Of a stretch of DNA of 64,000 nt, positions 19,541 through 64,000 are shown in pieces; position 1 is the stretch's first letter, and the number at the start of each line of letters is the position of its first letter. Both the position numbers and the translations under genes were made by a program. The stretch lies in the NCBI GenBank assembly GCA_001910725.1, contig MJGA01000003.1, forward strand, positions 62,001-126,000, written 5' to 3'. Source of the stretch: Phanerodontia chrysosporium. Its lineage: Eukaryota > Basidiomycota > Agaricomycetes > Polyporales > Phanerochaetaceae. The notes beneath the pieces were generated by a model. The model made no database searches. It was not told the origin of the DNA and saw only the letters and a program-made list of their open reading frames with translations.

Positions 19541-20070
19541 GGAATCACGTACACTGCAGACAGCCCAAAATTTCGGGCAACCGGAAATGTTTGGTAAAGG
19601 GTTTTATAAACGTTTCGTTTCCTTTGGATTTCGAGGTAAATTTCCAGGTAGGTGAAATCTTGCCTTTCCATTGCCTTTCAGGGTAATTTCTTGTGCGAAG
19701 AAACATCTGCTGTCCGGTACGCTCGAAATCAGTAGGAAATCATCTAGAAAGGCAAGCTTGCGGCGTGTCGGAAATTATCCAGAAAGGCATCATTTCTGAT
19801 ATCTTTCCGCGGACTTTCAGGGGGCTTGAAATGTGACGTGTCTACCATGAGGAAATGATACATGTCCCTATACAGGAAATTTTGAATTTTGGTCAACTTT
19901 CGAGTGGCGCGATAGGTAGCTGAAAGGTTACCTAAAGGGTAACATTTCCCGATCATTTCGAGTGCCCGAAAAGTCTAGCTTTCGTCCTCATTTCAGCCCG
20001 ATTTCATGACACGCGAAATTCTGACTTTCGGACGCCCTGAAATTGTATAGAAACTTAACATTTCCGGTGG
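19540..20070. repeat. GAAAT/ATTTC-rich low-complexity block
   Basis: About 500 bases in which short words such as GGAAAT, CGAAAT, ATTTCC and TTTCGG recur every 20-30 bases on both strands, against a more GC-rich background. No reading frame fits it. The mirror copy is cut by the right window edge at 64,000, inside this block. It could be an AT-rich subterminal region of an unidentified element or simply degraded repeat. Confidence 0.5.
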
Positions 20071-23000
20071 TTGCATCCCGATGTCACTGACACGTCGTGG
20101 TGCGTTCTGGCCCAACACATCGAGACGCGCGGCTATGTGCAACACATTTAGGTGCACCAAAATCTGCAAGACATCCGGGTGCATCTACTGGGTTGCAGTG
20201 TGATGCATCCGGTGGTACAGAGTGATGCATTCAGGTATGTCCGCGCGAGGTCAATGCTCCCACGTCTTCTTCTTTCCTTTTTGACATTAAACAAGGTTGA
20301 TTCACCTGGGACGGTACGTACATAAGCTCATGTACACACTGATGTCGTTACTAGCGAGGTTTTGGGCCGAGTCCAGTGGAACTGCACTGGGTCATCTCGA
20401 GGTACCGCATGCGAGTCATGGCACGGTTGAGGCGCGAGATCTTACTCGACTTCTGGTTCGACACTGGGAAGGCGTCCTTGTCAAGGAGTGATAGCCATCA
20501 CGAAGCTCGTCGCGGGGGCGCTGCTCGGACTCGATGCGTTGACGGCGGATCTCCTCGCGGCGCATGTCGTAGGGCATGGCCGACAAGGTCGGTTTGGAGT
20601 CGAAGTCGGACTCGCTACGGATGTCGTCGGAGCCCTGGGAACCGCCTTCTTCGCCTGGCGGGCCCATGTGCGCGTCGGGACGCCAGCGAGAGAGTTGATG
20701 CCTGTGGCTCCGCAACCACGTTGACTTGTCCGATTCGAGGCGCAACAGCTGCGGCCATTGTTGGTTATGGCAAGCAAAAAACGCACTGCTGAACTCACCA
20801 GCCTTCCATTTGTCTGTTCGCACTCTCTATCGTGCCGTAGACGGTAACCTCGGGTTCCTCTGTCGCCGATGAAGGCCTACTTATCGCTTAGACTGCCGTG
20901 TACAGGTAGTAGACTTTGCTGCCAGACTCTCGCCGTGTTGATATCGGGAGCCAGACCGCCATGCGCATTGCGATATCTTGCGCTCGAGGAGATGGTGCGC
21001 GTCCTGGTTGTCCTGAAGACCACCGCCGTAACTATCAGCACTGAAGAAGCCTGACTGGCTTGACGAAGAAGGGCATGAGTGATCGTGATCGAAGGACGAC
21101 GATTTTGAGATGGAAGTTACCGACCACTGTGAGCTTCATGGACTTGGTATAGCCGCGAGGCGGCCTGCCTCCCAGTCCTGAGCGCACGTGGATGTTTGGA
21201 AGTATTGCGCTTCGAGCAGACTTCCTTCATCTCCTCCTTGGTACAAAGCGGCCACAGACCCTGGAACTCGGCGTTGTGCAGCGACAAGCAGACCGGGAGG
21301 ACCTTCGGCAAGAGGTTGATGGGCGCGAGCGCACCGTGGTAGTCGTCGATGTGGTAGATGTCGATGAGCGGGAAGCGCTTGACGGTCGCGGCGATGGCCT
21401 GGTTCCAAGTCGAGTAGAAGATGGCAGAGCTGAGATCGTCCATACGAGCGGGATACGGGTCGGACTTGGTCTGCGCACGGAAGACGGGGCTGTCGAGGAT
21501 GACGTAGGTGATGTTGTCCAGGACGTGTGTCTCGACCTCGATGAGGTAGGGCTCGCCGAAGATGATAACCTCGATGGGCTCAGCAGGCTCGCCGGGCGGG
21601 TACTCCAGGTCTTTGACCTTGGGGATAACCCAGACCAGATCGACATCCGTCATGGCCTTACACATAAGACTGGACATGACACCGAGACCACCAATCTTGA
21701 CCTTGAGCTTCCAGTCGACGATCTCGTAGTCGAGGGTCGCGAATGAGCACCTTGCGACGCTTGTTCTTGTCCTCCGGCCAGCTTGCCTCGCACGTCCTCA
21801 CTGCCGTGGCGCCCTGCTCATTTGTCCACCGCGCCGATGACAGCTACCCAGCCGTACTATCGCTGCCGCTGCCGGCGCCGCTTGTTTGCCGGAGGCTGTC
21901 GTTGTGGTCCGTCCCGGCGGTCCTCGTCGGGAAATGACGGTCTGGAAAACCGCGCTGCAGTCGTTGACATCGGTCGCTCGGCCACGCAGAGCTGCGTCCG
22001 GTACGTTCGTCGCTGACGTCGTTCGCGATGGCCATATCTGACGCATCGTCGCCCCCAGGCCACAGCGTTCGCAGAGCTCTCGACGGGGCGGCCGCGCCGA
22101 GGTTGTCGATCCTCACCGAGCCCGGCTGTCGTTCGCCGCCGCGACGCATTCCAGCGGTACGTTCTCGCCCCTGTCGCCCGTCCCCAGCGGTCGTCTGCTT
22201 GGCAGGTTTCCCCGTGGGTTCTCTGGCAAAAACCACCCTCGCCCAGTCGGTGTCACGTCGTCGCCCTGCCTTGCGAGTCAGCGATCTTGCTTCGTCACGC
22301 ATTGCCCTTCACACTGGCCCTTCTCGCGATGCTTCTAGTACGTGCTCCCTGCGCCCCGTCGCTGCCTCGGTGCTGATGCACTGCCCGCTAGGTCTCGCTC
22401 CTACCGCCGCCGTCGTCGTCAAAGGCGCACACACCGAGGTCGCCGTGCTGTGATATCCGTCTGCTTGTGGTGTCCACCGAAGACCTTCTCGCTCATGTGC
22501 TCCTTGCTCAGGTTTGCGCTCGACTTGTGGACAAGGGCGCCGAGGATCGGGAAGTAGTTGTGCTCCTTCGTCGGCTTGACACCCCACTTGTTGTACTTGA
22601 TGCCGTAGAACGACCACATGAAGATGACGACAGCGAGGGTACCGGTGATGAGAGGGATCGACAGCAGGAGAGCGTACATGATGGCGCCGACGGCAGACTG
22701 ACCACGGGGCTCGAGAGTCCAAGTCAGAGTGGTATCGTACGAGCAGAGCCCATGCAAGATGCGGGTGCGGGGGTGCAGACATGTTCAGGTAGTTTGGCGC
22801 GGCAGTGTTGGGCAGCAGACGGTCGAGAACGCCATCGAGTCGACATCACCGTAGTAGTAATCGTTGTAGCCCCAGACGTTCAGCTGCACGTAGGTTGGCC
22901 AGGTCGCCATGATCTCGAGCTCCCACTTGCCGTCGTTGTTGTGCGTCATCTCGGCCGGAATACCCTGATCGAAACCCCACTGGTTGAAGGGACCACGGGC

Positions 23001-24670
23001 CAGGAACTGAGGGACACGGCGAGGCGTGGGGTAGCCACGATCCGCGTGCACAACGACCGCAGCCGATGCAGCGAGCGCGCTCCAGTCTGTCAAATATGGA
23101 TCAGTGCATGCACGCTACAAGTGCAAAAGAGGTCACATACACTGTACCATGATATGCTGGCCTTCCCAGAATTGCCCTCGAACTCCTTCTCGTCGATGGT
23201 AGTCGTATCCTTCCAGTTGCGCCACTCGGTCCAATTCTGACCGAAGTTAGTCGAGTAGCGGAACTTGTCTGCACCAAACACCTGGTGAGTGAACGTGTAC
23301 TGCCCGTTGTTGTAGCCGAACGCGTCGTTGTCGTAGTCAGACTCGGGGAAGACCATGACATTCTTGGCCGACCCCTTGCGGAGAAACAGACGGTCCTTGG
23401 ACTAGCAGAATTGTCAGGGAAAATGAGTGCGGGTCATGCATATTGGACACTCACACCTGTTGAGCCCCCTCCGTTCGGAGCACTCGGATTGTTGACGAGG
23501 ATCTCCAGAATACCATCGGGAACGCCCTCGAGCGTCCCAGACCAGGACCACAACGACGCGTCGACACCATTGATCGTCGAGAAAACCGGGTTCGCGATAT
23601 TCGTACAATTGATGCTGCCCCCTGGTTCTGAGTGATGGTCACCTTCGATATCAGAAACATTCGCGTTGAAGAGGCCATGGCGACCATCCGGAAGGAGGCG
23701 ACGCGACGCGTGAATACCGTCTGATCGGGAGCGTACGAGCTCTCGTTGACGCTAGCGGCGTCCCAGACGGGTGTGCTTGGTGCACGACATTTCAGACATC
23801 GTGCTCAGCAGTTGCATGTTCTCTGCCGCCATCACAATTGGAGCGCAGATAGCGTTGAGACCAGCGCGGCTGCGAGACTTGGTGATACTGAGACGGAGGA
23901 AGTCGTCCGTGGACTGACGCCATTCGAACGATGGGGAAACGTTGATGTCGTACATACAGAGACTTGCCGCGAATCCTCCCGTCTCCGACATTTGAGTGGG
24001 CCACTAAGTGACCGGTAAGTTTCGCGACCTTGAGCCAGCAAGCTATGACTCACCACCCATTTGCGGGTCGTACCCGTTCGCCTGTATCTCCTCCACATTT
24101 GGGCTCGATTGCATCACATGCAGATCCCGACATGACTCCCGCCAAGTTGCGTTCCAGATGGTTGCACAGCAACGACCATTATTTCGCATCTGAGGAGCTA
24201 GGTCGAGCAGGAGAGCCTAACGGTACAGTGAGCGAGACGCTTGATGGGCTGGGAATGGGTGTGAGTTGAGAAACGACCGCGATGGGCGAATGGATGGGGA
24301 GGGGACGGGTGGCGTCTGGGTTGCATCAAGGTGCAGTGCGATATACGGTTAGTTGCACCCGCTGCTAGACTGCTTCCTGAAGCTTGAGACCGCAATGAGC
24401 GTGATATGGGATACCCACGAAGACGGTACATACCCTGTCCGTGGTTCCCCTCTCCTCCCCCATCCCTCACGCCGCTCATTTTCGAGGGGTCCAGCACGAG
24501 CCTGCATTAGCACGCGTACATCAGGCGCAAAGACACGTCAGGACTAGTGTTGTGCGCAGAGTTAGGTTTTGAAGAGAGAAGTAGCGTTGGTCGTTGTCGA
24601 GGCTCGTGTGAGAGGCGACCTGAGGCGACCTGGAGTGACGAGTCGCACCTGCGTGTCACAGAGTGTCACA
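19879..24670 (+). repeat. left arm of a large inverted repeat (partner 59,209-64,000)
   Basis: Every position x here matches the complement of 83,879 minus x. All reading frames in this arm recur in the other arm on the opposite strand with identical lengths and translations, so there is no indel along 4,792 bases. In four segments checked base by base (around 19,880, 20,250, 21,270 and 22,830) and at the inner end, I found no mismatch. Identity stops sharply at 24,670, after GTGTCACAGAGTGTCACA. The outer limit is unknown because the partner arm runs off the window, so this arm may extend further left than 19,879. Confidence 0.97.
20430..23991 (-). pseudogene. ags1: decayed alpha-1,3-glucan synthase, left copy
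   Basis: Plasma-membrane enzyme family that polymerises cell-wall alpha-1,3-glucan. In minus-strand order the fragments are: SPSFEWRQSTDDFLRLSITK (23,930), AAENMQLLSTMSEM, ESSYAPDQTVFTRRVASFR, GVDASLWSWSGTLEGVPDGI, GYNNGQYTFTHQVFGADKFR, RGPFNQWGFDQGIPAEMTHN, the membrane segment AIMYALLLSIPLITGTLAVV (about 22,670), then the GT5 starch-synthase-like domain (KVKIGG, MCKAMTDVDLVWVIPKVKDL, LINLLPKV-like block, SLHNAEFQGLWPLCTKEEMK) to about 21,200, and part of the linker to about 20,430. The amylase start and the multi-pass C-terminus are absent. There are frame breaks near 21,742, 22,755 and 23,160. It is identical to the right copy, so it decayed before duplication. Confidence 0.9.
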
Positions 24671-35398: not shown

Positions 35399-35962
35399 AT
35401 GTCTGCCCTGCGAGCCTTCCTGCACGACCTCATCGCCCTGCCCTCGGGGCTGCAACTCGAGGCCTCGCTCAGCCTCCCCAGAAACACATCCACAGCACAC
35501 TAACAAAACACGCTGTGGCTCGGCGGGTGGATGGACGACCCGTGTGTCACACTCATAAGCTGAACGCGCCCGCGCTCACGCTGCCCGGCCACTAGGGTGC
35601 TGCAAGCACCGAAGGTGCCGCTCCTGTGCGCGGGCTACGCCGTGCTGCGCTACAACTCGCACGGTGTCGGCCGCTCGTCGAGCTGGCCATCGCTCACGGG
35701 CCTCCATGAGGCGCGTGACCTCGAGGAGCTTGTGCATTGGGCCATGGCGCAGACACCGGGGTTCACGTCCATCGTCATTGTAGTACGCTTCACGCTCGTC
35801 CTTCGCATTCGTCTCACGCAAACTTGGCATCTCATGTGGACAATTGCGACGCACGGTAGATTTATAGCGAGCTCGTGACCTCGCTGGACCCGCTGTCACT
35901 ACTGTGGAGGCCAGGATGCATATGCACACCGACCTCGAGGCGACAAGGAGGTGACGCGCTAC
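35399..35962 (+). pseudogene. N-terminal part of an alpha/beta hydrolase, interrupted by the retrotransposon
   Basis: ATG 35,399 opens MSALRAFLHDLIALPSGLQL, then after a frame change LWLGGWMDDP (about 35,515), AGYAVLRYNSHGVGRSSSWP, SLTGLHEARDLEELVHWAMA and TSIVIV at about 35,630-35,780, and after an intron-like gap YSELVTSLDPLSLLWRP near 35,870. This is the first half of an S33-type alpha/beta hydrolase (oxyanion-loop GVG motif). An in-frame stop follows WMDDPCVTLIS, so it was probably decayed before the insertion. The frame GDKEVTRY up to 35,962 continues directly into RMLADTAVSE at 43,630, beyond the element. Confidence 0.6.
35958..35962 (+). repeat. target-site duplication, left copy (GCTAC)
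   Basis: GCTAC stands directly before the 5' LTR and again directly after the 3' LTR at 43,625-43,629. A 5-bp duplication is standard for Ty3/gypsy integrase. Removing the element and one copy gives a continuous reading frame across the site. Confidence 0.95.
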
Positions 35963-36253
35963 TGTCACGGATGTGACGGTGCTGCCCTATTTTTCGCCGA
36001 TTTTTGGCCATTTTCCTCGATTAATCCAACGGGCGAGCAGCCCTCGCGCCGCCTGGAGTCCTAGCCGCCCACACTCAGCGCCAGCGCCCTGATGGCGCAT
36101 CACCCCTAGACGCCAGCGCATCCCGCTGCGCGCTCAGACACTGCCCGGATCACCGGTCTGCCTTGCAACCGGTTCCCCGGATCGCCGAGGAGGCACTGTC
36201 ATCCCTGATGACTCCCCTCGCCGAGACACGCCGAGCTGATCAGCCTGATGACA

Positions 36254-36351
36254 CAGCCTCGGCCCGACGCAGCCTCGGACACTGCCAGCTGACACAGCCT
36301 CGTGACATAGCCCCCGCACAGCCTCGCCGCGCAGCCCGCGTCGCAGCCTCG
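36254..36351 (+). promoter_or_regulatory. five CAGCCTCG repeats in U3
   Basis: The 8-mer CAGCCTCG occurs at 36,254, 36,270, 36,295, 36,319 and 36,344, the last four about 25 bp apart and all on the same strand, 66-163 bp upstream of the TATA box. The spacing suggests phased factor sites (enhancer), but simple sequence drift in a GC-rich U3 is possible. The same array is present in the 3' LTR. Confidence 0.5.
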
Positions 36352-36416
36352 CTGGCTATGCTGAGCGCTGCCCATCAGCTTATGTAATCGTATAGCCTGC
36401 CCTAAAGGACCTGTAG

Positions 36417-36424
36417 TATATAAG
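36417..36424 (+). promoter_or_regulatory. TATA box of the element
   Basis: TATATAAG, 34 bp upstream of the predicted RNA start at 36,451. It is the only clear TATA motif in U3 and is conserved in the 3' LTR. Confidence 0.75.
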
Positions 36425-36450
36425 GGTAGCTCCCCTCGCTCCTGTTCGTC

Positions 36451-36460
36451 ATCTCGACCT
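36451..36460 (+). promoter_or_regulatory. predicted RNA 5' end / self-primer (ATCTCGACCT)
   Basis: ATCTCGACCT lies 34 bp downstream of the TATA box and is exactly complementary to AGGTCGAGAT at 36,644-36,653, which begins 2 nt after the 5' LTR, the position of the primer-binding site. No tRNA-like PBS starting with TGG is present. In Tf1 and related sushi elements the first 11 nt of the RNA fold back to prime reverse transcription; this arrangement has the same geometry. Confidence 0.65.
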
Positions 36461-36478
36461 CTTGGTCAATACGGACAG

Positions 36479-36537
36479 GTAAGCCCGTTGTTTGTACAGT
36501 AGCTACTAGTGCTAATACACTTGGTCAATACGGACAG
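36479..36537 (+). other. predicted leader intron inside the LTR (59 nt)
   Basis: The donor is CAG|GTAAGC, the branch site GCTAATAC (36,511-36,518) and the acceptor GGACAG. Length and motifs are typical for basidiomycete introns. The 18 bases before the donor (CTTGGTCAATACGGACAG, 36,461-36,478) are repeated exactly as the last 18 bases of the intron (36,520-36,537). Confidence 0.6.
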
Positions 36538-36643
36538 CTGCATAAGTTGTGCGTCGCCTGCGTGACTCGCTCCGCCGCGCCTCGTCGTCGACCTCCCCAC
36601 TTGCCCTCCCTCGTGAAGCGTTGAGCCCTAGCTCCGCGACATT

Positions 36644-36653
36644 AGGTCGAGAT
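36644..36653 (+). promoter_or_regulatory. primer-binding site for self-priming (AGGTCGAGAT)
   Basis: Ten bases starting 2 nt after the LTR, perfectly complementary to 36,451-36,460. The complement breaks on both sides, so the pairing is 10 nt. This is where minus-strand strong-stop synthesis would begin. Confidence 0.65.
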
Positions 36654-36734
36654 CTTTTGGGTGCCCTAGGCATTTCTCCCTACCGCTCCCCCCAAACCCC
36701 GTTTAAAAAAGTTTATTCCCTCCGTTTAAAGCGA

Positions 36735-36795
36735 GTACGTCGTAGTCGAGCAGCCTGCTCACTCCGTGCACGTTGCTAAGGTCCTTACTTCGCAG
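36735..36795 (+). other. predicted intron that splits the first start codon (61 nt)
   Basis: The donor is GCGA|GTACGT, the branch site TTGCTAAG (36,774-36,780) and the acceptor TTCGCAG. The exon before ends in A (36,734) and the exon after begins TGCCG (36,796), so splicing creates ATG in frame with the 229-codon ORF, which otherwise has no ATG at all. The spliced leader from 36,451 contains no earlier ATG. Confidence 0.65.
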
Positions 36796-37484
36796 TGCCG
36801 AAAGACGTCCGGCTCAAGGACCACATCCCCCAGCGCATCTTCGATCGCCTCCAACGTCGTCGCGAGGCCGGTAATCCCGTCAAGTGGACGGACCGCAAAG
36901 TCAAGGCGGTCGTCAAGTACGTGTCCACGCTCCCCCAGCCTCCGCCCTCCGTCCCCTCCATCAACTGGACTGCCGTTCGCGAGGCTCGTGAGGCCGAACA
37001 ACGCGTAGGCAACCGCATCCGCGAACAGCGCCAACGAGAGGCGCAAGAAGCCCAGGCCGCCGTAGCCTCCTCCTCCTCGAAGCTCAGTTTGGCAGAGCGC
37101 CTCAGCGCCGCCCCGACGTACGAGCCCATCGCCCGCAAGCCCGTCGGCATCGATATCCCCAAGTACTCCCCCACCGACCTCGTCGGCATCTTCACGCCTA
37201 AACTCGACGCGACCATCAAGCGTCTCAAGGCCGTTGAGGAAGTCGACCTCTTCCACCTCGTAAACAGCGACCGCGCGCACGGCGTCTGCCAGCTGCTCGA
37301 GCGTCTTCGACAGATCCGCAACGAGCTCAGCCGCCTCGCTCCCACCACCACGTTTAAGGAGTGGCACCAATACGAGCTAGGTCTTGCTCAGATTGGTGAC
37401 ATTTCGTTCGTCGGTTTAAGGCGCAATTTCCGCCGCATCGTGGGAGAGTTAGACATAGTGTACCGGGCCGGATACTTTGATTAA
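36795..37484 (+). CDS. ORF1 of the retrotransposon, unknown function
   Basis: A 229-codon frame upstream of gag. The only way to give it an AUG is the predicted splice at 36,735-36,795; the genomic codon at its head is GTG, and no Met occurs inside. The protein is basic and rich in Arg, Gln and Ala: LKDHIPQRIFDRLQRRREAG, KVKAVVKYVST, a charged helix REAREAEQRVGNRIREQRQR (about residues 60-80) likely to form a coiled coil, and a C-terminal part VCQLLERLRQIRNELSRLAP. It ends at TAA (37,482-37,484). The same frame then stays open for 140 codons into gag, so it could be the N-terminal part of a longer Gag. I recognise no domain. Confidence 0.7.
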   Translation: MPKDVRLKDHIPQRIFDRLQRRREAGNPVKWTDRKVKAVVKYVSTLPQPPPSVPSINWTAVREAREAEQRVGNRIREQRQREAQEAQAAVASSSSKLSLAERLSAAPTYEPIARKPVGIDIPKYSPTDLVGIFTPKLDATIKRLKAVEEVDLFHLVNSDRAHGVCQLLERLRQIRNELSRLAPTTTFKEWHQYELGLAQIGDISFVGLRRNFRRIVGELDIVYRAGYFD

Positions 37485-37904
37485 ATAAATACATCTCGTG
37501 TCGCTCTGGATTACGACTGCTCGCGCGATCCGCATTTCTTTGCGCGAAATCTCGAGGACCATACAGTTCGCGATTTTCACCTCATCGATCGAGGGGAAAG
37601 TTGGCAATTCGTTCCCTGTAGCGAACAACCCTGTCCACATCGAGAAAGCGCTCCAGCGGCCCCACAACTCCCGCCGAACGCTCGAGAAGTCCAATTCGAG
37701 CACCCTCGTTTCGCGCACCTGTTAGAATTCGCCCGCGCCTCCGCCACTACCCCGAATACTCCCGATCACAGTCCCCCGGACAGCAGCCACCACTCGTCTC
37801 CCGAGACATCGCTCGGCTCCGTCCTCTCTGATCACGAACCCGCTCCTTCCCCGTTTAACCTCTCCCGCGCTCACTCAGGAGCCAATACTCCCCGTCCTCC
37901 CAAT

Positions 37905-39155
37905 ATGTCCAGCACTCCCGGTGGAGCGCCTCCCGGCCCGGCTCCTCTCGACCCCGTCTCCGCTGCGCTCCTGCAAATGGCCCAGGCGATGACGCAGCTC
38001 ACCAACACGGTCAACACTCTGGCCCAGACTATTGGCGCCAATCGGACAACGGTCAACGCCACGGTTAACGCGAACAAGGAGCTGCCCTTCGTCGAGAAGC
38101 CCGTCCCGTTCAAAGGGAAAGGTTCGGACACGGCCCGTCTCTTCCGCGCCGCCTATCGCATCTACGCCGACGGACAACCGGAGAAATTTGGCAAGCGCGA
38201 CGTCGATGGTAACCTCCAGCGAGACCCCGACTCTGGCAAGATCTTGGTAGATGGTCAGAAGTGGATCGTCGGCGCCCTCTCCTTCATGCAGGACGAGGCG
38301 GCTGAATGGGCACGGCAGTACATCGAACAGGCGGCAGACGGTGTTCAGATATTCGACGGCTCTCGCGCCACGTTTTGGGAAGCGTTCAAGAACCGGTTCG
38401 AGCCCGTCGACGAGAAGGCCGAGGCCCTCAGCAAGCTGCAGGCATGCACGCAAGGCAATCGTCGGTTCGCGGAGTTCTTCGCGGAGTTCCAAGCCCTCGC
38501 CGGCCGCACGAAGCTCACCCCGGAGGACCTGGCAGCCCGGCTACGGACGAAGTTCAACAAGGACTACCTCGAGCGGATCTCATACATGGTCAACCCCGCT
38601 ACTGGCAAAGGTCCCGAGACGTACGACGAGCTCAAGAACGCGGGTTTCGCTGTCGATCGGTCGAAGGACAAGCTCTCACAAGACCTCCTGGCACAGCAAG
38701 GCAAGACGTCCTCAACTCCGGCTAGCTCGTCAGCGCGCGCTTTCCGCGACCCGAACGCGATGGACATAGACGCCGCGAACATCGACGAGCTGTTTAAGGG
38801 TCTCACTGGCACGGATCTTAAGCGCCAGTTCGACGCCGTCATGAAGGACCGCTGCAAGGTCTGTGGCTCGAAGTCCCATAAGTCCACGGACCCCGTTCAC
38901 CGTGATTCGGTCTGCAACCACTGCGGCAAGAAAGGTCACTGGTCCCGCGTCTGTCGTGCCCGCCTCGAGGGCAAGCCAAAAACCGCCCCTGCTACCGCCG
39001 CCGTTCGCGCCTCGTCTTCGGATACCTCGTCACAGGACTCCTCGTCTCCGGCCTCCTCGTCTTCTGGCAGCTCGTCTGACGACCAAGCTGCCGCGATCGC
39101 CGCCCTCCGTGATCAGCTGGCTCTGATACAAAAGCAGCTCGGGGGTTTTGCCTAA
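37905..39155 (+). CDS. gag: gag
   Basis: Structural protein of the virus-like particle; 416 codons from ATG 37,905, with open frame for 140 codons before it. The N-terminus is Pro-rich (GGAPPGPAPLDPVSAALLQM), then comes a capsid-like region (DTARLFRAAYRIYADG, QKWIVGALSFMQDEAAEWAR, FKNRFEPVDEKAEALSKLQA, RRFAEFFAEFQALAGRTKLT) and a zinc knuckle CNHCGKKGHWSRVC from residue 337 (CX2CX4HX4C), preceded by a second Cys/His cluster (CKVCGSKSH). The C-terminal tail is Ser-rich. The stop TAA (39,153-39,155) lies 3 nt after a -1 slippery heptamer. Confidence 0.95.
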   Translation: MSSTPGGAPPGPAPLDPVSAALLQMAQAMTQLTNTVNTLAQTIGANRTTVNATVNANKELPFVEKPVPFKGKGSDTARLFRAAYRIYADGQPEKFGKRDVDGNLQRDPDSGKILVDGQKWIVGALSFMQDEAAEWARQYIEQAADGVQIFDGSRATFWEAFKNRFEPVDEKAEALSKLQACTQGNRRFAEFFAEFQALAGRTKLTPEDLAARLRTKFNKDYLERISYMVNPATGKGPETYDELKNAGFAVDRSKDKLSQDLLAQQGKTSSTPASSSARAFRDPNAMDIDAANIDELFKGLTGTDLKRQFDAVMKDRCKVCGSKSHKSTDPVHRDSVCNHCGKKGHWSRVCRARLEGKPKTAPATAAVRASSSDTSSQDSSSPASSSSGSSSDDQAAAIAALRDQLALIQKQLGGFA

Positions 39156-39187
39156 GGGGCCGGAGTGACGCCGCATCGTCGGTCCCC
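39143..39187 (+). promoter_or_regulatory. -1 ribosomal frameshift signal at the gag-pol junction
   Basis: The heptamer G GGT TTT (39,143-39,149) fits the X XXY YYZ rule in the gag frame. Six nt later a stem can form: GGGGCCG (39,156-39,162) with CGGTCCCC (39,180-39,187, one bulged T). After a -1 slip the frame TGC CTA AGG continues open for 67 codons to the pol ATG at 39,350 and through pol. Sushi-type chromoviruses and their domesticated relative PEG10 use the same kind of slip. Confidence 0.8.
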
Positions 39188-39349
39188 GTTTCGTCAAGCC
39201 CGGATTCAACTCCGGCGCCTTCGTTAGACCCACAGGACATTTCGGACTCTATCCGCTCGTGTACAATATCCGTATTAGACCCTTTTTCGAATCACTACCG
39301 TGTACCAGTAAAGCTCACCGGGATCAATAAAACTATTCGCACGCCCGCA

Positions 39350-42300
39350 ATGATTGACTCCGGTGCGACTTCGCTGTTCATTCACGAAGACTTCTGCAAG
39401 CAGCATAAGATTCTCACGGTACCACTCAAAAGGGAAATTACGTTATACAACATCGACGGAACCAAGAATGAAGCAGGGTCTATCACACGTCGTGCCAGAC
39501 TCCAGCTCACTGTGGGCTCGTACACGTTTAAGGAGGAGTTTCTTGTCACGAACATCGGTCCCGAGAACGTCATCCTCGGACTTCCGTGGCTCAAGAAATG
39601 GAATCCGAACATCGACTGGGAAACGGGAGATGTCCAGTTTCAGCTCCGCGGCGGGGTTGAGGACACCCCAGTTTTCGGCATACACCAGATTGACGCCAAC
39701 CGCTCCGAACGCCGTGAATGGCTTCGGGCAGGCATTGTTGAGGACGCCAAGGACGAAGTCTGGATCCTCGCCGGCTACACTTACTCGCAAGCGATCGCTG
39801 TCGAAGCCAATCGCGAGAAGTATGCCAAGACGTTCGAAGAACTGGTTCCCAAGGAGTACCACCGACACAAGAAGGTGTTCTCTGAAGAAGAATCGCACCG
39901 TCTCCCGAAGCATCAGCCCTGGGATCACGCGATAGATCTCGTCCCAGACGCCCCGGCCTCGATCAAATCGAAGGTTTATCCCATGTCCCCGATCGAGAAC
40001 GAAGAGCTGCAGCGGTTTATCGACGACGCACTCGCCAAGGGCTACATCGTCCCCAGCAAGTCTCCGATCGCCTCGCCCGTGTTCTTCATCAAGAAAAAGG
40101 ACGGCAAGCTCCGGTTCATTCAGGACTATCGCAAGCTCAACGACATCACCGTGAAGAATCGGTACCCCCTTCCGCTCGCCTCCGACATCATCGGGAAGCT
40201 CCAGGGCGCTAAGATCTTCACTAAGTTCGACGTCCGCTGGGGCTACAACAACGTCCGGATTAAGGAAGGTGACGAGTGGAAAGCTGCCTTCGTCACCAAC
40301 CGCGGTCTCTTCGAGCCCAGAGTTATGTACTTCGGTCTGTGCAACAGCCCTGCCACGTTCCAGGCCCTCATGAATCACATCTTCGCCGACCTCATCGCCG
40401 AAAGCAAGGTCGCAGTCTACCTCGACGACATCCTCATCTGGTCGAACGATCTCGCTTCGCATCGGAAGATTGTTCACGAGGTCCTGGCACGCCTCGCCAA
40501 GTACGATCTGTACCTTCGGCCCGAGAAGTGCGAGTTCGAGCGCTCAGAGATCGAGTATCTTGGGCTCCTCATCAGCGAAGGACAAGTCGGCATGGACCCT
40601 GGCAAGGTTAAGGCAGTAGCCGAGTGGCCGACCCCGAAGAACCTCAAAGACGTGCGAGGCTTTGTCGGGTTCGCCAATTTCTATCGCCGTTTCATCAAGG
40701 ACTTCTCAAAGATCTGCCGCCCGTTGCACGATCTAACGAAGAAGGACACTCCGTTTAATTGGGGTCCCGCACAGGCAGAAGCCTTCGAGACGCTCAAGCG
40801 CGCTTTCACGACTCAGCCCGTGCTCGCCATGTGGAGCATTGATCGGCCAACTCGCGTCGAGACCGATGCTTCTGGCTACGCCACCGGAGGAGTCATAGCC
40901 CAACGCAACCCTGAAGATGGTCTCTGGCATCCAATCGCGTATCGCTCGCAGACCATGAGCCCCGCCGAGCGGAACTACGAGATCTGGGACCGCGAGATGC
41001 TTGCAATCATCGAAGCTCTCAAGGACTGGCGCCAGTTCCTCGAAGGTCTCCCGGAGCCTTTTGAGATCTGGACCGATCACCAGAATCTCCAGTACTGGAA
41101 AACTGCGCAGAATCTCACACGGCGACAAGCCCGATGGGCCTCCTACCTCGCCGAGTACGACTTCCGCATCATCCACCGCCCTGGCAAGACCCATCTCCTC
41201 GCCGACCCGCTCTCCCGGCCTTCCTCGCTGCATGTCTCTGACGAAGAGGACAACCGCTCGCAGATAGTGTTGAAGCCGGAGCTGTTTAAGATAGCCGCCA
41301 CGGTAGCTTTCGCAAACCCCTCCCCCCTCGAGAAGCGCATTCGCGAATGCTCCGAAAAGGAAAAGGAAGTCGCAGACGCCCTACAGACTCTCCGGACCAA
41401 GGGGCCCCGCAAGCTGCACAACGGCGTTCTCGAATGGGAAGAGGACAACGGCCTTCTGTACTACCATGGGAAAGTCTATGTCCCGAACAGTGTCGCGCTG
41501 CGCAACGACGTCATCAAGTCTTGCCACGACGCGCCGACCGCCGGACACCCTGGGAAGCACACCACTCTCGAGTTGGTCTCTCGGTACTATTGGTGGCCAC
41601 GCATCTCCGCCGACGTTAGCCGCTACGTGCTCGGTTGCGATCAATGCCAACGGTACAAGTCCGCCCCGCATCCGAAAGCCACCCTACAGCCCCACGACGT
41701 CCCTTCAGGGCCTTGGGAACACGTCGGCGTGGATCTCATCACGCAACTCCCACGTGACGCCAAGACCAAGAAGGACTCAATCGCGGTCTACGTGGACCAC
41801 TATTCGGATCAGTGCCACCTTGTGCCGGTCGACTCGACGATCACCGCTGCCGGCATGGGCGACGTCCACTACACAGACATCTTCCGCCTCCACGGCCTCC
41901 CACGCAAGATCTTCTCCGATCGTGGACCCCAGTTTGCAGCCCAGTACATGCGAGCGTTGTACAAGCGCCTCGGCATCGCTACCGGCCTCACCACGGCGTA
42001 TCACCCTGAAAGCAACGGCAAGGTCGAGCGCAAGAACCAGGAAGTCGAGAAATTCCTGCGTCTCTTCGTCTCCCAGCGCCAAGATGACTGGGTCGATTGG
42101 CTCCCGATGGCCGAGTTCACCCTGAACTCACACGTGTCCAGTGCTACCGAGCGCACGCCCTTCGAGATTGTTTACGGCTACACACCGGACTTCACGATCC
42201 CGGCCGGCAAACACACCAACGTTCCCGCTCTCGACGAGCGCCTAGACCGCATGGCTCACGTCCGCAAAGAGGCCGAAGCTGCCCTGCGCCTAACCAAAGC

Positions 42301-42907
42301 CCGCATGAAAGAAGAGTACGAGGCCGCGAAGAAACGCGCCCACTCCTTCAAGGTCGGCGATCAGGTTTGGCTCAGCACGAAGGACCTCAGCATCGATCAG
42401 CCCTCGCCCAAACTCGGCCCCCGCCAGCTGGGTCCGTTTAAGGTTCTGGAAAAGATCGGCGATCTGGACTATCGGCTCGAGCTCCCGAGCTGGCTGAAAA
42501 TCCACCCGGTTTTCCATGTCAACCGCCTCAGCCCGTGGCACGATCAAGGCGTTGAGAAGCCCCTGCCACCCAAACCTGTCAAGGTTGCCGGCGAAGAAGA
42601 ATACGTCGTCGAGAAAGTCCTCGACAGCCGCATATACCGCCGACAACTGCAGTACAAGGTCCACTGGAAAGGCTACAGTCAAGCCGGCGACACGTGGGAA
42701 AAAGCAGACAACCTCAAACACGCCAAAGCTCTGGTCAACAAATTCCATCGCGAAAATCCGGAAGCGCCCCGCAAGCTCGCTGCCACCGCCTTCGAAGCCC
42801 TCGCCGCCTCTTTTCGCCCGTTCGTCACCGAAGTCGACGTCTCCCACCTTTCTGCCTCTGATCGCGCCAAGGCCGATCTCGATTGGGAGGAGGGGCGTCA
42901 CCTCTGA
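39350..42907 (+). CDS. pol: pol polyprotein: protease, reverse transcriptase, RNase H, integrase, chromodomain
   Basis: 1,185 codons from ATG 39,350, but the open frame extends upstream to the gag stop (with protease sequence VPVKLTGINKTIRTPA before the ATG), so it is probably made as Gag-Pol by frameshifting. Protease: DSGA at residues 3-6. Reverse transcriptase: KKKDGKLRFIQDYRKLND and YLDD at 357-360. RNase H: TDASG with Asp at 506, DREMLAIIEALKDWRQFL. Integrase zinc site H733-X3-H737-X25-C763-X2-C766; catalytic D795, D857 and E893 (DX35E). Chromodomain about 1083-1137 (EEYVVEKVLDSRIYRRQLQY, KVHWKGYSQAGDTWE), expected to direct integration to modified histones. No frame lesion. The length is normal for chromoviruses. 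Confidence 0.97.
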   Translation: MIDSGATSLFIHEDFCKQHKILTVPLKREITLYNIDGTKNEAGSITRRARLQLTVGSYTFKEEFLVTNIGPENVILGLPWLKKWNPNIDWETGDVQFQLRGGVEDTPVFGIHQIDANRSERREWLRAGIVEDAKDEVWILAGYTYSQAIAVEANREKYAKTFEELVPKEYHRHKKVFSEEESHRLPKHQPWDHAIDLVPDAPASIKSKVYPMSPIENEELQRFIDDALAKGYIVPSKSPIASPVFFIKKKDGKLRFIQDYRKLNDITVKNRYPLPLASDIIGKLQGAKIFTKFDVRWGYNNVRIKEGDEWKAAFVTNRGLFEPRVMYFGLCNSPATFQALMNHIFADLIAESKVAVYLDDILIWSNDLASHRKIVHEVLARLAKYDLYLRPEKCEFERSEIEYLGLLISEGQVGMDPGKVKAVAEWPTPKNLKDVRGFVGFANFYRRFIKDFSKICRPLHDLTKKDTPFNWGPAQAEAFETLKRAFTTQPVLAMWSIDRPTRVETDASGYATGGVIAQRNPEDGLWHPIAYRSQTMSPAERNYEIWDREMLAIIEALKDWRQFLEGLPEPFEIWTDHQNLQYWKTAQNLTRRQARWASYLAEYDFRIIHRPGKTHLLADPLSRPSSLHVSDEEDNRSQIVLKPELFKIAATVAFANPSPLEKRIRECSEKEKEVADALQTLRTKGPRKLHNGVLEWEEDNGLLYYHGKVYVPNSVALRNDVIKSCHDAPTAGHPGKHTTLELVSRYYWWPRISADVSRYVLGCDQCQRYKSAPHPKATLQPHDVPSGPWEHVGVDLITQLPRDAKTKKDSIAVYVDHYSDQCHLVPVDSTITAAGMGDVHYTDIFRLHGLPRKIFSDRGPQFAAQYMRALYKRLGIATGLTTAYHPESNGKVERKNQEVEKFLRLFVSQRQDDWVDWLPMAEFTLNSHVSSATERTPFEIVYGYTPDFTIPAGKHTNVPALDERLDRMAHVRKEAEAALRLTKARMKEEYEAAKKRAHSFKVGDQVWLSTKDLSIDQPSPKLGPRQLGPFKVLEKIGDLDYRLELPSWLKIHPVFHVNRLSPWHDQGVEKPLPPKPVKVAGEEEYVVEKVLDSRIYRRQLQYKVHWKGYSQAGDTWEKADNLKHAKALVNKFHRENPEAPRKLAATAFEALAASFRPFVTEVDVSHLSASDRAKADLDWEEGRHL

Positions 42908-42945: not shown

Positions 42946-43624
42946 TGTCACGGATGTGACGGTGCTGCCCTATTTTTCGCCGATTTTTGGCCATTTTCCT
43001 CGATTAATCCAACGGGCGAGCAGCCCTCGCGCCGCCTGGAGTCCTAGCCGCCCACACTCAGCGCCAGCGCCCTGATGGCGCATCACCCCTAGACGCCAGC
43101 GCATCCCGCTGCGCGCTCAGACACTGCCCGGATCACCGGTCTGCCTTGCAACCGGTTCCCCGGATCGCCGAGGAGGCACTGTCATCCCTGATGACTCCCC
43201 TCGCCGAGACACGCCGAGCTGATCAGCCTGATGACACAGCCTCGGCCCGACGCAGCCTCGGACACTGCCAGCTGACACAGCCTCGTGACATAGCCCCCGC
43301 ACAGCCTCGCCGCGCAGCCCGCGTCGCAGCCTCGCTGGCTATGCTGAGCGCTGCCCATCAGCTTATGTAATCGTATAGCCTGCCCTAAAGGACCTGTAGT
43401 ATATAAGGGTAGCTCCCCTCGCTCCTGTCCGTCATCTCGACCTCTTGGTCAATACGGACAGGTAAGCCCGTTGTTTGTACAGTAGCTACTAGTGCTAATA
43501 CACTTGGTCAATACGGACAGCTGCATAAGTTGTGCGTCGCCTGCGTGACTCGCTCCGCCGCGCCTCGTCGTCGACCTCCCCACTTGCCCTCCCTCGTGAA
43601 GCGTTGAGCCCTAGCTCTGCGACA
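42946..43624 (+). repeat. 3' LTR
   Basis: Same as the 5' LTR except C at 43,429 and T at 43,618. It ends in ...GCGACA followed by the second target copy GCTAC. Confidence 0.97.
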
Positions 43625-43833
43625 GCTACCGGATGCTCGCCGACACTGCAGTGAGCGAGAGGTCCGCTGCACAGAGGCAGACATTGCGCGCCTTAAGCGG
43701 CCCAGAAGCGATGCTGCGGACGCGCGAGTGGCAGGCAAGGGAGGAGGACCTGTATCTACCTGCCCGGTATCAGACTCAGTGCCACATGGCGGCCTCAGCT
43801 TCGCTGGTGTGTGTAACTTGCGCAACATCATGA
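43625..43833 (+). pseudogene. host reading frame downstream of the insertion
   Basis: Joined to the left flank (35,920-35,962) after removal of the element and one target copy, the frame runs GDKEVTRY then RMLADTAVSERSAAQRQTLR, EAMLRTREWQAREEDLYLPA and stops at 43,831-43,833. It may be the continuation of the hydrolase remnant or unrelated sequence in the same frame; I do not recognise it. Confidence 0.35.
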
Positions 43834-59208: not shown

Positions 59209-62200
59209 TGTGACACTCTGTGACACGCAGGTGCGACTCGTCACTCCAGGTCGCCTCAGGTCGCCTCTCACACGAGCCTCGACAACGACCAACGCTACTT
59301 CTCTCTTCAAAACCTAACTCTGCGCACAACACTAGTCCTGACGTGTCTTTGCGCCTGATGTACGCGTGCTAATGCAGGCTCGTGCTGGACCCCTCGAAAA
59401 TGAGCGGCGTGAGGGATGGGGGAGGAGAGGGGAACCACGGACAGGGTATGTACCGTCTTCGTGGGTATCCCATATCACGCTCATTGCGGTCTCAAGCTTC
59501 AGGAAGCAGTCTAGCAGCGGGTGCAACTAACCGTATATCGCACTGCACCTTGATGCAACCCAGACGCCACCCGTCCCCTCCCCATCCATTCGCCCATCGC
59601 GGTCGTTTCTCAACTCACACCCATTCCCAGCCCATCAAGCGTCTCGCTCACTGTACCGTTAGGCTCTCCTGCTCGACCTAGCTCCTCAGATGCGAAATAA
59701 TGGTCGTTGCTGTGCAACCATCTGGAACGCAACTTGGCGGGAGTCATGTCGGGATCTGCATGTGATGCAATCGAGCCCAAATGTGGAGGAGATACAGGCG
59801 AACGGGTACGACCCGCAAATGGGTGGTGAGTCATAGCTTGCTGGCTCAAGGTCGCGAAACTTACCGGTCACTTAGTGGCCCACTCAAATGTCGGAGACGG
59901 GAGGATTCGCGGCAAGTCTCTGTATGTACGACATCAACGTTTCCCCATCGTTCGAATGGCGTCAGTCCACGGACGACTTCCTCCGTCTCAGTATCACCAA
60001 GTCTCGCAGCCGCGCTGGTCTCAACGCTATCTGCGCTCCAATTGTGATGGCGGCAGAGAACATGCAACTGCTGAGCACGATGTCTGAAATGTCGTGCACC
60101 AAGCACACCCGTCTGGGACGCCGCTAGCGTCAACGAGAGCTCGTACGCTCCCGATCAGACGGTATTCACGCGTCGCGTCGCCTCCTTCCGGATGGTCGCC
60201 ATGGCCTCTTCAACGCGAATGTTTCTGATATCGAAGGTGACCATCACTCAGAACCAGGGGGCAGCATCAATTGTACGAATATCGCGAACCCGGTTTTCTC
60301 GACGATCAATGGTGTCGACGCGTCGTTGTGGTCCTGGTCTGGGACGCTCGAGGGCGTTCCCGATGGTATTCTGGAGATCCTCGTCAACAATCCGAGTGCT
60401 CCGAACGGAGGGGGCTCAACAGGTGTGAGTGTCCAATATGCATGACCCGCACTCATTTTCCCTGACAATTCTGCTAGTCCAAGGACCGTCTGTTTCTCCG
60501 CAAGGGGTCGGCCAAGAATGTCATGGTCTTCCCCGAGTCTGACTACGACAACGACGCGTTCGGCTACAACAACGGGCAGTACACGTTCACTCACCAGGTG
60601 TTTGGTGCAGACAAGTTCCGCTACTCGACTAACTTCGGTCAGAATTGGACCGAGTGGCGCAACTGGAAGGATACGACTACCATCGACGAGAAGGAGTTCG
60701 AGGGCAATTCTGGGAAGGCCAGCATATCATGGTACAGTGTATGTGACCTCTTTTGCACTTGTAGCGTGCATGCACTGATCCATATTTGACAGACTGGAGC
60801 GCGCTCGCTGCATCGGCTGCGGTCGTTGTGCACGCGGATCGTGGCTACCCCACGCCTCGCCGTGTCCCTCAGTTCCTGGCCCGTGGTCCCTTCAACCAGT
60901 GGGGTTTCGATCAGGGTATTCCGGCCGAGATGACGCACAACAACGACGGCAAGTGGGAGCTCGAGATCATGGCGACCTGGCCAACCTACGTGCAGCTGAA
61001 CGTCTGGGGCTACAACGATTACTACTACGGTGATGTCGACTCGATGGCGTTCTCGACCGTCTGCTGCCCAACACTGCCGCGCCAAACTACCTGAACATGT
61101 CTGCACCCCCGCACCCGCATCTTGCATGGGCTCTGCTCGTACGATACCACTCTGACTTGGACTCTCGAGCCCCGTGGTCAGTCTGCCGTCGGCGCCATCA
61201 TGTACGCTCTCCTGCTGTCGATCCCTCTCATCACCGGTACCCTCGCTGTCGTCATCTTCATGTGGTCGTTCTACGGCATCAAGTACAACAAGTGGGGTGT
61301 CAAGCCGACGAAGGAGCACAACTACTTCCCGATCCTCGGCGCCCTTGTCCACAAGTCGAGCGCAAACCTGAGCAAGGAGCACATGAGCGAGAAGGTCTTC
61401 GGTGGACACCACAAGCAGACGGATATCACAGCACGGCGACCTCGGTGTGTGCGCCTTTGACGACGACGGCGGCGGTAGGAGCGAGACCTAGCGGGCAGTG
61501 CATCAGCACCGAGGCAGCGACGGGGCGCAGGGAGCACGTACTAGAAGCATCGCGAGAAGGGCCAGTGTGAAGGGCAATGCGTGACGAAGCAAGATCGCTG
61601 ACTCGCAAGGCAGGGCGACGACGTGACACCGACTGGGCGAGGGTGGTTTTTGCCAGAGAACCCACGGGGAAACCTGCCAAGCAGACGACCGCTGGGGACG
61701 GGCGACAGGGGCGAGAACGTACCGCTGGAATGCGTCGCGGCGGCGAACGACAGCCGGGCTCGGTGAGGATCGACAACCTCGGCGCGGCCGCCCCGTCGAG
61801 AGCTCTGCGAACGCTGTGGCCTGGGGGCGACGATGCGTCAGATATGGCCATCGCGAACGACGTCAGCGACGAACGTACCGGACGCAGCTCTGCGTGGCCG
61901 AGCGACCGATGTCAACGACTGCAGCGCGGTTTTCCAGACCGTCATTTCCCGACGAGGACCGCCGGGACGGACCACAACGACAGCCTCCGGCAAACAAGCG
62001 GCGCCGGCAGCGGCAGCGATAGTACGGCTGGGTAGCTGTCATCGGCGCGGTGGACAAATGAGCAGGGCGCCACGGCAGTGAGGACGTGCGAGGCAAGCTG
62101 GCCGGAGGACAAGAACAAGCGTCGCAAGGTGCTCATTCGCGACCCTCGACTACGAGATCGTCGACTGGAAGCTCAAGGTCAAGATTGGTGGTCTCGGTGT

Positions 62201-64000
62201 CATGTCCAGTCTTATGTGTAAGGCCATGACGGATGTCGATCTGGTCTGGGTTATCCCCAAGGTCAAAGACCTGGAGTACCCGCCCGGCGAGCCTGCTGAG
62301 CCCATCGAGGTTATCATCTTCGGCGAGCCCTACCTCATCGAGGTCGAGACACACGTCCTGGACAACATCACCTACGTCATCCTCGACAGCCCCGTCTTCC
62401 GTGCGCAGACCAAGTCCGACCCGTATCCCGCTCGTATGGACGATCTCAGCTCTGCCATCTTCTACTCGACTTGGAACCAGGCCATCGCCGCGACCGTCAA
62501 GCGCTTCCCGCTCATCGACATCTACCACATCGACGACTACCACGGTGCGCTCGCGCCCATCAACCTCTTGCCGAAGGTCCTCCCGGTCTGCTTGTCGCTG
62601 CACAACGCCGAGTTCCAGGGTCTGTGGCCGCTTTGTACCAAGGAGGAGATGAAGGAAGTCTGCTCGAAGCGCAATACTTCCAAACATCCACGTGCGCTCA
62701 GGACTGGGAGGCAGGCCGCCTCGCGGCTATACCAAGTCCATGAAGCTCACAGTGGTCGGTAACTTCCATCTCAAAATCGTCGTCCTTCGATCACGATCAC
62801 TCATGCCCTTCTTCGTCAAGCCAGTCAGGCTTCTTCAGTGCTGATAGTTACGGCGGTGGTCTTCAGGACAACCAGGACGCGCACCATCTCCTCGAGCGCA
62901 AGATATCGCAATGCGCATGGCGGTCTGGCTCCCGATATCAACACGGCGAGAGTCTGGCAGCAAAGTCTACTACCTGTACACGGCAGTCTAAGCGATAAGT
63001 AGGCCTTCATCGGCGACAGAGGAACCCGAGGTTACCGTCTACGGCACGATAGAGAGTGCGAACAGACAAATGGAAGGCTGGTGAGTTCAGCAGTGCGTTT
63101 TTTGCTTGCCATAACCAACAATGGCCGCAGCTGTTGCGCCTCGAATCGGACAAGTCAACGTGGTTGCGGAGCCACAGGCATCAACTCTCTCGCTGGCGTC
63201 CCGACGCGCACATGGGCCCGCCAGGCGAAGAAGGCGGTTCCCAGGGCTCCGACGACATCCGTAGCGAGTCCGACTTCGACTCCAAACCGACCTTGTCGGC
63301 CATGCCCTACGACATGCGCCGCGAGGAGATCCGCCGTCAACGCATCGAGTCCGAGCAGCGCCCCCGCGACGAGCTTCGTGATGGCTATCACTCCTTGACA
63401 AGGACGCCTTCCCAGTGTCGAACCAGAAGTCGAGTAAGATCTCGCGCCTCAACCGTGCCATGACTCGCATGCGGTACCTCGAGATGACCCAGTGCAGTTC
63501 CACTGGACTCGGCCCAAAACCTCGCTAGTAACGACATCAGTGTGTACATGAGCTTATGTACGTACCGTCCCAGGTGAATCAACCTTGTTTAATGTCAAAA
63601 AGGAAAGAAGAAGACGTGGGAGCATTGACCTCGCGCGGACATACCTGAATGCATCACTCTGTACCACCGGATGCATCACACTGCAACCCAGTAGATGCAC
63701 CCGGATGTCTTGCAGATTTTGGTGCACCTAAATGTGTTGCACATAGCCGCGCGTCTCGATGTGTTGGGCCAGAACGCACCACGACGTGTCAGTGACATCG
63801 GGATGCAACCACCGGAAATGTTAAGTTTCTATACAATTTCAGGGCGTCCGAAAGTCAGAATTTCGCGTGTCATGAAATCGGGCTGAAATGAGGACGAAAG
63901 CTAGACTTTTCGGGCACTCGAAATGATCGGGAAATGTTACCCTTTAGGTAACCTTTCAGCTACCTATCGCGCCACTCGAAAGTTGACCAAAATTCAAAAT
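59209..64000 (-). repeat. right arm of the large inverted repeat (partner 19,879-24,670)
   Basis: Reverse complement of the left arm without gaps. The inner end is at 59,209 (TGTGACACTCTGTGACACGC); the outer end is beyond the window. Orientation is such that the glucan synthase copy here reads rightward, away from the spacer. Confidence 0.97.
59888..63449 (+). pseudogene. ags1: decayed alpha-1,3-glucan synthase, right copy
   Basis: Same content as the left copy. Fragments run in the family order from the amylase-side C-terminal region (59,888-61,090: SPSFEWRQSTDDFLRLSITK, GYNNGQYTFTHQVFGADKFR, NNDGKWELEIMATWPTYVQL) through the membrane segment at 61,200-61,260 to the GT5 domain (62,150-62,680: AMTDVDLVWVIPKVKDLEYP, NAEFQGLWPLCTKEEMKEV) and the linker with ISRLNRAMTRMRYLEM near 63,450. 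Breaks: a small deletion near 60,718, frame change near 61,125, about 650 bases (61,440-62,090) without family similarity, and one extra base near 62,137. The start codon region with signal peptide and most of the amylase domain, and the multi-pass C-terminus, are missing. Confidence 0.9.

Follow-up and report, generated by a model that had tools for sequence, protein, structure and literature searches.

The window analysed here, a 64-kb stretch of the Phanerodontia chrysosporium genome, contains a complete and young Ty3-type LTR retrotransposon of the chromovirus type. Its features, some of them described with reference to an alignment of 70 genomic copies that is introduced below, are as follows.

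35958-35962 and 43625-43629: target-site repeat GCTAC, flanking both LTRs
35963..36641, + strand: 5' LTR, 679 bp, TG...CA, with 2 mismatches to the 3' LTR
36417..36423, + strand: putative TATATAA box, 34 nt upstream of the predicted cap
36451..36478, + strand: exon 1, opening with the predicted RNA 5' end ATCTCGACCT (self-primer), nearly invariant in the 70 copies
36479..36537, + strand: predicted intron 1, with a GTAAG donor, a CTAAT branch-like motif at 36512-36516 and a CAG acceptor
36642..36654, + strand: primer-binding site (PBS) of the self-priming type, complementary to the predicted RNA 5' end
36734 (A) and 36796-36797 (TG), + strand: split start codon, in 69 of 70 copies
36735..36795, + strand: predicted intron 2, 61 nt, with a GTACGT donor (36735-36740), a branch region GTTGCTAAG (36772-36780; GCTRA branch-like motif at 36775-36779) and a CAG acceptor (TTCGCAG, ending at 36795)
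36796..37484, + strand: ORF1 exon, opening with TGCCGAAAG; 229-codon basic protein, pI 10.0
37080..37124, + strand: stretch of ORF1 with little synonymous variation (permutation P 0.0042)
37500..37904, + strand: N-terminal extension of Gag, coding most clearly in its second half; no ATG in the window copy, with the CUG at 37506 (GCUCUGGAU) as candidate start
37905..39155, + strand: gag from its first AUG, the first AUG of an intron-2-retained RNA in the window copy
39143..39149, + strand: GGGTTTT heptamer, just before the gag stop
39158..42907, + strand: pol, with protease, RT, RNase H, integrase and chromodomain
42946..43624, + strand: 3' LTR

Examination of pol with Pfam recovers, in order, the gag-asp_proteas, RVT_1, RT_RNaseH, Integrase_H2C2, rve and PF00385 Chromo domains, the first just above the cut-off and the last with an E-value of 4e-14. 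By this domain order, with protease, RT, RNase H and integrase followed by a C-terminal chromodomain, the element appears to be a chromovirus. The gag product contains a Retrotrans_gag domain, while its match to a zinc knuckle falls short of the cut-off, and the GGGTTTT heptamer near its end, judged by the heptamer rule for -1 frameshifting, fits a -1 shift into pol. Positions 36644-36653 of the PBS (AGGTCGAGAT) are the reverse complement of 36451-36460, and both segments are nearly invariant in the 70 copies. A PBS that is the reverse complement of the RNA start is the arrangement that we take to be that of self-priming Tf1/sushi-type elements, and with the RNA end as predicted the element would be of this type. 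Given this match and the distance from the TATATAA box, the cap is placed near 36451.

The first-pass annotation had pointed to a 229-codon frame upstream of gag that lacks an ATG in the DNA, and to an intron that would supply one. Direct reading of the sequence bears out both the intron coordinates and the split codon: there is no ATG between about 36451 and 37905, the exon upstream of intron 2 ends in ...AAAGCGA at 36734, and its predicted A|TG join to the next exon reads ATG+CCG..., opening 229 codons up to a TAA at 37482-37484. As had also been claimed, the assembled AUG would be the first AUG of the spliced RNA counted from the predicted cap. When leaders were shuffled with their dinucleotides kept, just 4 of 20000 contained an in-frame A|TG intron with donor, branch-like and acceptor motifs. 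Folding of intron 2 with its flanks gave an unremarkable z of -1.25. The split start codon is confirmed as a feature of the sequence, and its joining would be the work of splicing.

Comparison with other copies was confined to the element's own genome, in which 150 of 222 candidate ORF1 matches were scored. Among the matches listed, 108 are near-full-length, i.e. cover at least 217 ORF1 residues, and the aligned set comprises the 70 of these that rank best by ORF1 similarity (L031-L100), a non-random sample. Sixty-nine of the 70 are distinct in sequence; they share ancestry, so that counts over them are not independent. The alignment of other copies, which had been proposed as a check on the split codon, shows the donor GTACGT in 70/70, the acceptor CAG in 70/70 and the A|TG in 69/70, the sole exception (L100) reading ATA. 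The length of intron 2 is 61 nt in 27 copies, 60 nt in 39 and 59 nt in 4. All 12 core splice-signal sites are invariant, as against 35 of the 61 intron 2 sites (hypergeometric P 4.8e-4, the copies being related); donor and branch taken alone give P 0.004, and the GCTRA motif has a single variable site, A/G. Averaged over pairs of copies, divergence is 0 in the donor, 0.36 from branch to acceptor and 0.19 at fourfold sites of ORF1. Positions 36741-36774, outside the splice signals, are also conserved (divergence 0.05), and the longest invariant run outside the signals is 36757-36765. Conservation of intron 2 thus reflects more than splicing, and this additional constraint might mean another role, e.g. 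in packaging.

A search of the same genome for the spliced intron 2 junction found 0 places at up to 3 mismatches, as against 124 for the unspliced donor context and 0 for a reversed control pattern. This agrees with the earlier claim that the reverse-transcribed RNA keeps the intron. In its presence in genomic copies and the absence of the spliced form from the DNA, intron 2 matches the facultative introns of LTR elements such as copia and BARE1.

The ORF1 frame is stop-free in 103 of the 108 near-full-length rows among the matches listed, and unbroken in 69 of the 70 aligned copies. Its dN/dS is 0.082, compared with 2.6 and 3.3 in the two shifted frames, and over 228 codons a base other than the commonest is found in at least two copies at 24, 14 and 146 sites of codon positions 1, 2 and 3, respectively. 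The only length change is a 36-nt in-frame insertion near the N terminus, found in 18 of 70 copies (L055, L056 and 16 others), which form a subfamily. Judged by its substitution pattern, ORF1 is a real gene under strong selection. It matched no Pfam family above the cut-off and no relatives in a collection of viral contigs, and an AlphaFold model from the single sequence is helical, with a mean pLDDT of 51 that is too low for use. The stretch with little synonymous variation within it is possibly a cis-acting RNA element, perhaps a packaging signal.

The strongest new sign, absent from the first-pass annotation, is the exclusion of AUG from the leader. The window copy has no ATG in any frame of 36451-37904, where 7.5 are expected, and over the 70 copies the interval from the cap to 37905 outside intron 1 holds 9 ATGs as against 449 expected (ratio 0.02), with 6 versus 217 in ORF1 and 3 versus 133 in the region that follows. 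ATG is the scarcest of the 64 triplets in the leader of these copies, the next-lowest triplet having a ratio of 0.65. Its 9 occurrences lie at 9 separate places in one copy each, with no place common to two copies; every other triplet has at least 14 leader places common to two or more. Control ratios from 29-30 copies are 0.78 for U3 upstream of the cap, 0.02 for the leader and 1.9 for gag downstream of its AUG. Synonymous resampling of the window copy alone gives weaker values (P 0.05 for ORF1, P 0.30 for the Gag extension); thus the statistical power comes from the many copies, with their shared ancestry. The gag AUG at the end of this interval is kept in the window and in 69 of 69 copies read there, one locus ending before it.

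An ORF1 that is translated needs no avoidance of internal AUGs, whereas one that is scanned across does, so this pattern argues that some RNA without the start of ORF1 is translated. Such an RNA would keep intron 2 or, on a rival view considered below, use a weak non-AUG start. The sequence pattern indicates that ribosomes scan this RNA and make Gag from it, so that it does more than serve as genome. The switch envisaged earlier was between ORF1 translation and use as genome: its unspliced replicated RNA stands, and with AUG excluded right up to the gag AUG the choice is better framed as one between ORF1 and Gag-Pol.

Intron 1, which lies inside the LTR and had been missed by the first-pass annotation, is present in 68 of the 70 copies. 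Its GTAAG is unchanged in all 68 carriers and the last three bases of the CTAAT are invariant; the interior is hypervariable (divergence 0.35). Across the 70 copies it contains 39 ATGs versus 60.6 expected (ratio 0.64) at five places, three of them common to several copies (36488 in 6, 36492 in 4 and 36515 in 27) and two confined to a single copy (36496 and 36509). Every leader ATG place common to at least two copies falls within this intron. An ATG is found there in 34 of 70 copies, and 33 of these 34 have an unbroken ORF1 frame (including L100, which is without the split ATG). Since ATGs at these places would stand in the way of scanning ribosomes if the segment stayed in, intron 1 is probably spliced from the mRNA. 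Intron 2 holds 0 ATGs in the same copies against 6.3 expected, over 61 nt only, and the contrast between the two fits the removal of intron 1 from mRNA and, weakly, the frequent retention of intron 2.

In those copies that have intron 1, the genome RNA must also keep it. The intron is absent from L076 and L097, i.e. at least 2 of the 70 copies, and from further LTRs; a search for the junction without it lists 37 places at up to 3 mismatches, of which some with 2-3 mismatches may contain the intron. An exact 18-nt direct repeat, CTTGGTCAATACGGACAG, occupies 36461-36478 at the end of exon 1 and 36520-36537 at the 3' end of intron 1, both units being nearly invariant despite the hypervariable intron interior. 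With this repeat at the ends of the intron, splicing and repeat-mediated deletion leave the same DNA, and loss of intron 1 was therefore set aside as a product of splicing, being indistinguishable from such a deletion.

The N-terminal extension of Gag spans 135-137 codons and is open from a common [VIA]ALD start in 62 of 71 sequences. For the extension as a whole dN/dS is 0.26, falling to about 0.06 in codons 81-120. In codons 21-40 it reaches 0.74 when all pairs are taken and 1.03 when the two main types are compared, with no clear sign of constraint, so that the coding case is strong only for the second half. Only three ATGs occur in it among the copies, each in a single copy. The genome carries two diverged versions of the extension (37500-37720), the window type in 17 of 62 and the commoner type in 45 of 62. 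For its start the simplest guess is a long Gag from the CUG at 37506, which we offer as a suggestion: CTGGAT (37506-37511) is invariant in 70/70 copies and in good context, and 37506 is the only leader RNNCTGG in the window copy and alone among CUGs in being fixed (70/70). As a uniquely marked start it was rejected. Other copies have RNNCTGG at 37468 (38/70), at 37449 (13/70) and at a few rarer places, and strong-context CUGs elsewhere are not notably rare (5.6% of CTGs, versus a median triplet of 8.5%). Comparable near-cognates in good context are also nearly fixed (TTG at 37089 in 70/70, GTG at 37361 in 69/70), and for this reason the CUG start is put forward as a suggestion only. The glycoGag of MLV is a longer Gag made from an upstream CUG, and its likeness to the candidate long Gag is one of analogy only.

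Two further routes into Gag were considered and rejected. In the window copy ORF1 and gag lie in one frame; over 71 sequences the spacing between the stop of ORF1 and the AUG of gag is 0, 1 and 2 modulo 3 in 28, 18 and 25, respectively, which argues against a fixed fusion of the two proteins through readthrough of the stop. Against a third intron that would lead into the extension, the window copy has no AG anywhere from the ORF1 stop up to the point where the extension begins.

In light of these observations, we propose that one promoter gives rise to several RNAs, intron 1 being cut from the mRNAs and intron 2 from only part of them. Removal of both introns would join A to TG and create the only AUG upstream of gag, from which ORF1 would be translated. 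Removal of intron 1 with retention of intron 2 would leave an AUG-free leader of 1.4 kb, so that ribosomes would scan across a silent ORF1 and start Gag(-Pol) at the AUG at 37905, some perhaps having begun a longer Gag at the CUG at 37506. The RNA with both introns would be the genome that is reverse-transcribed. We assign a probability of about 0.72 to this model of a partly spliced split-codon intron that sets ORF1 against Gag-Pol, with an unspliced genome. A fuller version appears to us evenly poised between right and wrong: a three-way switch in which RNA without intron 2 yields ORF1, RNA with it yields Gag-Pol and RNA that also keeps the LTR intron becomes genome, ORF1 possibly acting like Rev or CERV to favour unspliced RNA in a feedback loop and the CUG adding a second form of Gag.

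An explanation without splicing of intron 2 is that ORF1 starts inefficiently at an in-frame GUG at 36795 and that most ribosomes leak to the gag AUG, in which case the AUG exclusion has the same cause as in our model, namely scanning to that AUG. The GTG at 36795-36797 is indeed in the ORF1 frame, with a purine kept at its -3 position (36792 is G in 63/70 copies and A in 7/70), and the ORF I of rice tungro bacilliform virus (RTBV) starts at a non-AUG codon, with ribosomes leaking onward through ORFs that are free of AUG (PMC5902531). We nevertheless consider it unlikely, as it accounts neither for the invariance of GTACGT and of the A before it, 61 nt upstream, nor for the branch-like motif (P 0.004), nor for the very existence of a matching in-frame A|TG intron (4/20000 shuffles). 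Slightly less probable still is a reading in which splicing of intron 2 is constitutive, like that of host genes with A|TG first exons; the switch would then be absent, Gag would arise from reinitiation downstream of ORF1, and the intron would survive in the DNA only through packaged RNA that escapes splicing. PMC2911113 describes 47 Yarrowia lipolytica genes whose first coding exon is one base, the A of ATG, and reinitiation at 37905, about 420 nt past the ORF1 stop, could conceivably occur; yet AUGs inside a translated ORF1 would be harmless and are nonetheless excluded in all frames (6 versus 217 expected), and intron 2 has no ATGs in the copies compared. That the element is decayed, with an ORF1 that lost its ATG (the window copy has none) and splice-like motifs that arose by chance, is highly improbable given the same state in 69/70 copies, LTRs that differ at 2 of 679 sites and the strong selection on ORF1.

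Splicing does not, to our knowledge, usually figure in accounts of Ty3-type elements. We propose RTBV as the nearest mechanistic parallel to the model favoured here: RTBV and badnaviruses have the start codon of P4 supplied by splicing of the pregenomic RNA and use a non-AUG start (PMC5902531). RTBV is a plant pararetrovirus, whereas the present element is an LTR retrotransposon, and RTBV splices an upstream ORF that already possesses an AUG to a distal ORF and starts ORF I at AUU (PMC5902531). Here the AUG itself would be created where the exons on either side of a 61-nt intron meet, and the ORF that it opens is part of the leader. The element shares the leaky-scanning trait of upstream ORFs devoid of internal AUG in any frame (9 versus 449 expected in 70 copies); the window leader, having 0 AUG, lacks the AUG-bearing upstream ORF that goes with a stem-loop in ribosome shunt. 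It would thus work like RTBV in part without being a member of that type.

Facultative splicing in BARE1 and copia likewise gives separate RNAs from one LTR element, the replicated RNA of BARE being unspliced, as stated in the accessible part of PMC3735527. In these elements splicing favours Gag over Pol, by a frameshift in BARE1 and by removal of 2.9 kb of pol in copia, and unlike in the present case that part describes no splice-made start codon (PMC3735527). The Cer1 LTR element of C. elegans makes CERV from a spliced RNA and Gag-Pol and genome from the unspliced RNA, CERV being required for export of the genome RNA; it is a five-exon product with exons 1-3 in the gag frame, and the portion of PMC10309623 at hand describes no split start codon (PMC10309623). 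The Y. lipolytica cases are, like ours, fungal A|TG split starts, but in host genes, with no choice between two proteins described in what was accessible of PMC2911113. A search that took in mostly literature outside subscription, including parts of PMC5014426, PMC2864245, PMC7264820, PMC2911113, PMC10309623, PMC3735527 and PMC5902531, found no precedent among fungal LTR elements for a start codon created by splicing.

The element bears on the unsettled question of how an LTR element apportions one RNA to translation and to reverse transcription. If the proposed model is true, a single intron chooses between two proteins by making or withholding a start codon. ORF1 is a conserved accessory protein. 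Gene finders that require an ATG in the DNA would overlook both ORF1 and the Gag extension. An almost complete lack of AUG across 1.4 kb, broken only at the LTR intron, is an unusually clear mark for which any genome can be scanned.

Elsewhere in the window lies an inverted repeat with arms that match perfectly over at least 4792 nt (19879-24670 and 59209-64000), whose right arm reaches the window end and whose left arm is overlapped by only two open frames of more than 220 codons; it is either a recent duplication or an assembly effect.
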